Shown here: positions 41,110-41,875 of the stretch, piece by piece
How the letters are laid out: every line of letters starts with the position of its first letter
Numbering within the stretch: position 1 is the stretch's first letter
Assembly (NCBI GenBank): GCA_016744615.1
Contig: JADGEA010000009.1
Location: 1-41,875, forward strand
Length of the DNA stretch: 41,875 nt
Direction: 5' to 3'
From: Flavobacteriaceae bacterium
GTDB taxonomy: Bacteria > Bacteroidota > Bacteroidia > Flavobacteriales > Flavobacteriaceae
Notes under the pieces: model-generated
What the model saw: the letters and a program-made list of their open reading frames with translations, nothing else
What the model was told of the DNA's origin: nothing
Databases searched by the model: none
Position numbers and translations under genes: made by a program

Positions 41110-41248
41110 CAAAAATTAAAGCTGATTTTAGAGATAATTCAATAGAAATAGGTGCTTTATCAATATAAATTATTCATTAGGTAATATAATATTTATAAAG
41201 TAATAAATAGATAAATAAAGGGTGACTATTTGCGAATTTGATAAAAAA

Positions 41249-41576
41249 AAGTAAGTCTATAAGCCGGATTCTGTATCATACCAAAAGTATGACTCTTATC
41301 ATTTATCTACGTTACAAATTACTTTGCAACTCTAGCTGCTTACCCCTTGAAATTGAGCGAGTAGCTCTTACCCAAAAGGGACTTCAATATACATAGCATT
41401 GCACCGCATAGAGTTTACCTGGTTTCACTACAGCCGAACTGTACATACTTTCTGTTGCACTTGTCCTACCCCGAAACCCGGGGTGACGGATGTTATCCGC
41501 TATGCTACTCTTTGGTGTCCGGACTTTCCTCTTTATGCAAACTTAAGTCAACACAAAGCGATAAGACGACTTACTT
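41249..41576 (-). ncRNA. rnpB: RNase P RNA
   Basis: The minus strand has the universal landmarks of bacterial RNase P RNA. Near the 5' end is GAGGAAAGTCCGGAC (41517-41531), and near the 3' end ACAGAATCCGGCTTATA (41258-41274). The ends pair as helix P1: 41568-41574 with 41251-41257, extendable by four A-T pairs. The length of about 328 nt is normal for type A. As the catalytic RNA of RNase P it matures tRNA 5' ends. It lies downstream of two small-RNA-like units on the same strand, and its own 3' end is followed by a T-run. Confidence 0.95.
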
Positions 41577-41609
41577 TTTATGTTGTAAAAATACATTTAA
41601 ATTCAGTGA

Positions 41610-41684
41610 AAAAAAAATCCCACTCTTGAAAACAAAAGTGGGAAAATTGCTATGAAAAAGAATATTACTATAAAAGTAATATAA
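41610..41684 (-). ncRNA. Candidate small RNA, copy A
   Basis: On the minus strand a promoter (41690-41719) is followed by a 7-bp hairpin (41676-41682 with 41662-41668, ATATTAC type). Next comes a 19-nt unpaired CU-rich core (CTTTTTCATAGCAATTTT) and then an intrinsic terminator (41634-41642 with 41619-41627, one mismatch). An A-run on the plus strand supplies the U-tail. Predicted size is about 75 nt. The 26 nt at 41637-41662 are identical to 41790-41815 in copy B. No protein frame of note lies on this strand. Confidence 0.6.
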
Positions 41685-41689
41685 TGCCT

Positions 41690-41719
41690 CAAAAATACAA
41701 TATTTTAAATAATATTCAA
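41690..41719 (-). promoter_or_regulatory. Promoter of small RNA copy A
   Basis: Minus-strand TTG (41717-41719), exactly 19 nt, then TATTTTTG (41690-41697). This matches the Bacteroidota -33/-7 consensus in both elements and spacing, and is the best promoter match in the window. Confidence 0.65.
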
Positions 41720-41770
41720 CTTTTTTCATAAAAAATATTATAAAATTTTTAATAAATGCTTTTTTGTAAT

Positions 41771-41844
41771 AAAAAACCCACTCATTTAGAGTGGGAAAAT
41801 TGCTATGAAAAAGAAAAAGTTGCTGAATTTTAGAAATTCAGCAA
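41771..41844 (-). ncRNA. Candidate small RNA, copy B
   Basis: It has the same architecture as copy A. A -7 box TATATTTG (41847-41854 on the minus strand) precedes an 11-bp hairpin (41834-41844 with 41820-41830, TTGCTGAATTT type). The shared unpaired core CTTTTTCATAGCAATTTT follows, then a 7-bp terminator (41789-41795 with 41777-41783, CCCACTC) and a run of six T. The 5' hairpin differs from copy A in sequence while the core is identical. The -33 element would fall at the window edge and cannot be checked. Confidence 0.6.
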
Positions 41845-41875
41845 AACAAATATAATAAATTATTTACATAAAATC

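Follow-up and report, generated by a model that had tools for sequence, protein, structure and literature searches.

A candidate family of sibling small RNAs, usually encoded behind dnaJ, in the Flavobacteriaceae

Described small RNAs and the anatomy of the locus

To our knowledge, few small RNAs (sRNAs) have been described in the Flavobacteriaceae, a major group of aquatic bacteria. Four described systems come closest to the locus considered here. In streptococci, the CiaR-dependent csRNAs (RF02379) are sibling copies that share one seed and are built of two hairpins around an unpaired anti-start stretch (PMC4507080). The FopS sRNAs of Bacteroides thetaiotaomicron are paralogous and multicopy, and they use a common seed to bind the start codon and block translation (PMC11697453). 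Within the Flavobacteriaceae, several mRNAs of secreted proteins are predicted pairing targets of the sRNA Rfp18 of Flavobacterium psychrophilum; the pairing is ascribed to the third stem-loop of Rfp18, and deletion of Rfp18 lowered two target mRNAs (PMC9723704). The same source names Flavo-1 (RF01705), a Bacteroidota RNA motif that is widespread in Flavobacteriaceae (PMC9723704).

The locus lies near the end of a 41,875-nucleotide stretch of DNA, which is called the window below. A preliminary description of this DNA had proposed two homologous small-RNA-like units on the minus strand, and both sequence and predicted fold place the pair there, at 41854-41609. In each unit, a sigma-A-type box is followed by a hairpin, then by the unpaired core, and last by an intrinsic terminator. 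The features are as follows.

41847..41854, minus strand: promoter of unit A, sigma-A-type -7 box TATATTTG, from sequence; predicted +1 at 41842
41822..41842, minus strand: 5' hairpin of unit A, from the fold; starts at the predicted +1
41796..41813, minus strand: unpaired core of unit A, CTTTTTCATAGCAATTTT, the proposed anti-start seed; unpaired in the fold
41771..41795, minus strand: intrinsic terminator and T run of unit A, from sequence and fold; stem CCCACTC/GAGTGGG at 41795-41777, T run at 41776-41771
41690..41697, minus strand: promoter box of unit B, TATTTTTG, from sequence; predicted +1 at about 41685
41662..41682, minus strand: 5' hairpin of unit B, from the fold
41643..41660, minus strand: unpaired core of unit B, identical to that of unit A, from sequence and fold
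41609..41646, minus strand: intrinsic terminator and T run of unit B, from sequence and fold; stem at 41646-41618, T run at 41617-41609
41244..41577, minus strand: rnpB, the RNase P RNA, next gene downstream and given for context only (RF00010, 194.6 bits, E 1.3e-61)

The predicted +1 positions follow from a box position of -12 to -5 (PMC9723704), and in both units the 5' hairpin begins at, or a few bases from, the start expected from the box. The predicted folds, two hairpins around the unpaired core, have energies of -23.6 and -21.8 kcal/mol for the two units and are more stable than those of shuffled sequences (z of -6.56 and -8.14, with 0 of 200 shuffles as stable). The stretch identical between the units, TTCTTTTTCATAGCAATTTTCCCACT, has the length of 26 nt first reported for it; in the predicted fold of unit B, the last four bases of the core fall inside the terminator stem. 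From the T run of unit B to the start of rnpB there are 31 nt. The TAnnTTTG box proposed for both units is present in both, but its strict form in unit B is local to the window genome, as the listed orthologs of unit B have a TATTTTTA-like box instead. These orthologs (L004-L021) often carry TGTATTTTTACA, which forms a short inverted repeat across the promoter box, has been lost in the window copy (41690-41698), and could be a regulator site.

Whether the units represent a known RNA such as Flavo-1 or a new one had been left undecided in the preliminary description, and the comparison with Rfam speaks against the former and for the latter. At curated thresholds, rnpB was the only match in the window, and among 20 further loci with the element it was again the only one, found in 7 of them. 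With E values up to 10, the window element drew 14 matches and a dnaJ-type copy 15, all far below the cut-offs and none of them to Flavo-1. Membership in a known Rfam family was rejected, there being no match at the thresholds nor one near the cut-offs up to E 10. No earlier report of the family was found in searches that covered one library of open-access papers and Rfam.

The likeness to the csRNAs is one of plan rather than of descent. Both have two hairpins around an unpaired stretch, which in the csRNAs contains UUUUUUCAU, but the csRNAs belong to another phylum, and the core kept here holds AUG and its flanks without an anti-Shine-Dalgarno stretch. The csRNA model scores 18.6 bits (E 4.2) on unit A and 17.3 bits (E 4.0) on L100, against a gathering score of 57. 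FopS is of the same phylum as the window, is multicopy, and has a common seed at the start codon, the role proposed here from sequence for the core. As it is described in PMC11697453, however, FopS is found within the Bacteroidaceae and carries its seed on single-stranded RNA at the 5' end, ahead of the terminator, whereas in the window family the 5' end is taken up by a hairpin, as in both units and 194 of 196 related ones, and the seed comes after this hairpin. The Rfam matches up to E 10, from a library that possibly holds no FopS model, included no FopS entry. Rfp18 is likewise set apart by its description (PMC9723704) as pairing through a third stem-loop, where only two hairpins are predicted here. 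The units would form a new family of a known kind, that of sibling trans-acting sRNAs; what is unusual is its breadth, its usual place behind dnaJ, and a hardly changing core beside a hairpin that is free in sequence but not in fold.

Conservation, covariation, and gene order

In the genus of the window, a 22-nt sequence that spans the core and the beginning of the terminator is found unchanged in 20 of 22 genomes, several of which are incomplete, and in two copies in 18 of them. A 22-mer kept to this degree means that the window units are not a product of chance. Beyond the genus, the family was traced with R1, a covariance model of core and terminator built from 15 sequences and applied with a match threshold of E <= 0.01. 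R1 matched 218 of the 248 genomes sampled from the bacterial family, only two of them weakly (G223 and G254, E 0.002-0.005), and 206 of 235 genera, so that the core, which the preliminary description had expected to be conserved, is indeed kept well beyond the window genome. In a sample of the phylum, 26 of 296 genomes matched; 15 of these matches are strong (E 4.4e-7 or better) and all lie in the window's family, and the other 11, with E between 0.002 and 0.01, may be due to chance. The highest copy number, eight strong matches, was seen in one genome of the phylum sample (G353), and in the same sample one genus of the family, g127, had a match in 2 of at least 17 genomes. The exact 13-mer TTGCTATGAAAAA is present anywhere in the genome in 217 of 218 R1-positive and 9 of 30 R1-negative genomes, a comparison that is supportive only, since R1 itself favors an unchanged core.

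A scan of named genomes yielded at least 118 loci with the element. Genera among the matches listed include Polaribacter, Tenacibaculum, Winogradskyella, Maribacter, Aquimarina, Salegentibacter, Mesonia, Dokdonia, several Flavobacterium, Myroides, and others, together with metagenome-assembled genomes labelled Flavobacteriaceae, Flavobacteriia, Flavobacteriales, Bacteroidetes, or Bacteroidota; because of these names, the bacterial family that carries the sRNA is taken to be the Flavobacteriaceae. As far as the named records show, the units would accordingly represent a new sRNA family of Flavobacteriaceae. The core pattern was also seen in three viral contigs. One of these, L470 (IMGVR_UViG_2634166274_000001, classed as viral), has a window-type core, a 5' hairpin, and a terminator, and may be a prophage or a prophage flank.

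The features flanking the core were compared in 196 units that have the exact core, after deduplication and removal of those with less than 60 nt upstream, less than 70 nt downstream, or no GGG-T terminator end; this collection, like the model R1, is biased toward an unchanged core. A 5' hairpin of at least six pairs is found in 194 of the 196 and a terminator hairpin in all 196. Of 195 units, 171 have the TAnnTTTG box at its expected distance; 50 rounds of shuffling gave 5.9 such units on average and never more than 12. Where it was measured, the start of the hairpin is no more than 4 nt away from the predicted +1.

As MAFFT was unable to align the diverse 5' hairpins column by column, covariation was assessed by arm swapping and by hairpin-centered counts. 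The halves of the 5' region, compared without folding, pair within a unit with a median energy of -10.0 kcal/mol and across units with -2.5 kcal/mol, and only 2.4% of the cross-unit arm pairs reach the median of the self pairs, with the 5' arms averaging 31% identity among related units. In 102 hairpins that were chosen by folding, seven stem positions each show all six standard pair types, the seventh having 27 unpaired cells as well. The terminator stem also covaries, with three of eight pairs changed on both sides and 99.2% of cells paired in 15 sequences. The proposal that the divergent 5' hairpins keep their fold is borne out by this covariation, in which arms fit within units and not across them; the hairpin thus appears to be free in sequence and constrained in pairing.

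The gene order of the family differs from that suggested by the window. Among 18 loci read, chosen mostly from one-copy genomes and with genes named from their sequences rather than by a model, the sRNA gene stands just behind dnaJ on the same strand in 17, the exception (L079) being cut at a contig end, and an ABC transporter ATPase gene usually comes next. Among the matches listed in named genomes (120 copies in 118 loci), dnaJ is upstream in 92, at a median of 70 nt from stop to core; 16 of the remaining copies lack enough upstream sequence and 12 lie elsewhere. Only 18 of the 120 have rnpB within 700 nt downstream, so an element specific to rnpB was rejected. The position upstream of rnpB given in the preliminary description therefore holds for the window and the genus, but the widely conserved neighbor is dnaJ. 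In the genus, the tandem pair lies between the two: rnpB is downstream in all 19 loci L004-L022, dnaJ is upstream in 18 (L015 is cut), and in the 17 loci with unit A the core of this unit follows the dnaJ stop at 88-110 nt, the window itself ending before dnaJ. Given this order, the window pair would most simply be explained as a tandem duplication of a dnaJ-linked gene, with rnpB next to it. A different arrangement was seen in L043, where four copies with nearly the same 5' hairpin (of the GGTAGGAG...CTCCTACC type) stand within about 1.1 kb, away from dnaJ and rnpB within the sequence examined.

Candidate target sites

The complement of the core, AAAATTGCTATGAAAAAG, comprises a start codon and its surroundings. 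In the 22 genus genomes, TTGCTATGAAAAA occurs 90 times, 38 of these being the sRNA genes, compared with 13 occurrences of the reversed pattern. All 52 of the other sites were read: 37 open an open reading frame (ORF) of at least 100 amino acids (in L135, inside a longer frame), and 7 more (L122, L149, L151, L160, L172, L179, and L180) open a leader of 12-14 codons whose end meets or overlaps the start of NADP-specific glutamate dehydrogenase, with NCBIfam run on one of the seven. By resemblance, the sites include 16 DUF2911 and 9 DUF6646 proteins, with Pfam run on two of the former and one of the latter. The candidate targets are thus DUF6646 and DUF2911 proteins with signal-peptide-like starts, lipoprotein-like proteins, and the leader ORF of glutamate dehydrogenase, a set that cannot by itself show selection because most of these genus sites were found by the motif.

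The DUF6646 orthologs were instead fetched by a protein search that ignored the motif and were found in 20 of the 22 genus genomes; as the query was the protein of a motif site, the choice of gene, not that of its orthologs, was led by the motif. Directly before the ATG, TTGCT is present in 14 of the 20 and TTGYT in 17. Upstream positions -5, -4, -3, and -1 are kept in 85-95% of the orthologs, and only one other of 45 upstream positions, -17 at 90%, is as conserved. For 19 of the 20 orthologs, the duplex predicted between the core and the DUF6646 start has an energy between -13.7 and -18.8 kcal/mol; among 801 background start regions, 0.37% pair as well as the median of these energies. The poor duplex (-10.9 kcal/mol) is that of G012, which is 74% complete and is one of the two genus genomes without a core hit. 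With the core complement at the start codons of conserved genus genes, pairing through a conserved single-stranded core, as originally proposed, gains support short of proof. Also before DUF6646, a CGTT box is seen about 30-42 nt from the start, at a similar distance, in 19 of 20 orthologs (L391, L392, and L451-L468), and recalls the CGT box that PMC9723704 assigns to ECF sigma factors; G012 has neither this box nor TTGCT before DUF6646.

Across the family, the motif was counted after subtraction of R1 copies and compared with the mean of three control motifs. Relative to this mean, the non-self motif is 1.63-fold as frequent in the 159 genomes with a single copy (201 against 370/3) and 1.73-fold as frequent in all 218 RNA-carrying genomes (290 against 504/3); in the 30 genomes that lack the RNA, the ratio is 0.73 (10 against 41/3). 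The Fisher p values for the excess, 0.015 and 0.009, are optimistic, as the genomes are related. These counts suggest a modest excess of the motif, confined to genomes with the RNA. ORFs of at least 100 amino acids are opened at 13 of 34 and 6 of 16 non-self sites versus 6 of 20 control sites, which is no clear difference. TTGCT was absent before the start in all DUF6646 and DUF2911 homologs read outside the genus and its sister genus g146 (30 loci each, one DUF2911 locus being unreadable). The targets are therefore not fixed and, if real, would turn over between genera. In five loci, TTGCTATGAAAAA has one site in a 3' untranslated region (UTR), directly before a terminator-like hairpin, behind genes for fasciclin (L301, L332, and L334), peroxidase-domain (L362), and DUF2383 (L369) proteins; such sites could be sponges for the sRNA.

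Proposed mechanism, alternatives, and implications

We consider it probable that the two units are genes of sibling trans-acting sRNAs that measure some 72 and 77 nt and have separate sigma-A-type promoters and intrinsic terminators; the sRNAs would pair at start codons and block the initiation of translation. The 5' hairpin, conserved in its fold alone, would probably protect the 5' end, and the unpaired core would pair with mRNAs at UUGCU-AUG-AAAAA and mask the start codon together with the bases that immediately precede it. Computation shows how the units are built, that they are conserved and covary, which genes stand beside them, and that conserved genus genes have complementary start sites; beyond this, we infer that the sRNAs would be transcribed, would pair in the cell, and would act by repression. 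Translational repression is the favored mode of action by analogy, on account of the plan and seed of the csRNAs and of the start-codon block by FopS in the same phylum.

The core might instead be chiefly the site of an RNA-binding protein, such as a Bacteroidota RRM protein, which the sRNAs would titrate or carry, the complementarity to start codons being secondary or incidental. Such a site would suit a core that is U-rich and kept while its flanks vary; the FopS sRNAs bind the protein RbpB in Bacteroides (PMC11697453), and the family-wide position test did not favor start codons. Yet the complement stands directly before the ATG in 17 of 20 genus DUF6646 orthologs, if the G-U compatible TTGTT is allowed, and the excess of the non-self motif tracks the presence of the RNA, so that this explanation is conceivable but unlikely. 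The usual position behind dnaJ, on the same strand and at a median of 70 nt from the stop in the 92 named copies among the matches listed, raises the prospect of a 3'-UTR-derived sRNA, processed from the end of the dnaJ mRNA and made together with the chaperone. An independent gene is indicated, however, by the box at its expected distance in 171 of 195 units, by hairpins within 4 nt of the predicted +1, by 12 of 120 named copies among the matches listed that lie away from dnaJ with enough upstream sequence, and by the place of unit B behind the terminator of unit A; a processed dnaJ 3' end is in our judgment rather improbable.

That the units serve merely as transcription terminators or spacers around dnaJ and rnpB, with no function in trans, would fit their position between genes and their terminator ends, but a spacer needs no kept unpaired core, no covarying 5' hairpin, and no promoter box of its own, and we regard this as very unlikely. 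On the plus strand, every copy also shows ATGAAAAAG in a context like that of a start, as it would if that strand encoded a short peptide and the minus-strand features were by-products. The genus ORFs that open there run from 5 to 68 codons with unlike sequences, however, and the box, the T run, and the unpaired core belong to the minus strand; a peptide, with neither length nor sequence kept, was rejected and is barely credible.

On the reading of the units as trans-acting sRNAs, a broader and decidedly tentative proposal is that the family, encoded behind dnaJ, is a post-transcriptional regulator common to nearly all Flavobacteriaceae, which would silence a changing set of envelope and metabolic genes through their start codons and be countered by sponge sites. 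If this is true, the Flavobacteriaceae would have a shared regulator of this type that is open to laboratory tests, present in most sampled genera, hardly changing in its core, and usually placed behind dnaJ. Flavobacteriaceae are known to rely little on Shine-Dalgarno pairing, and the family would then show how an anti-start seed works in bacteria of this kind.
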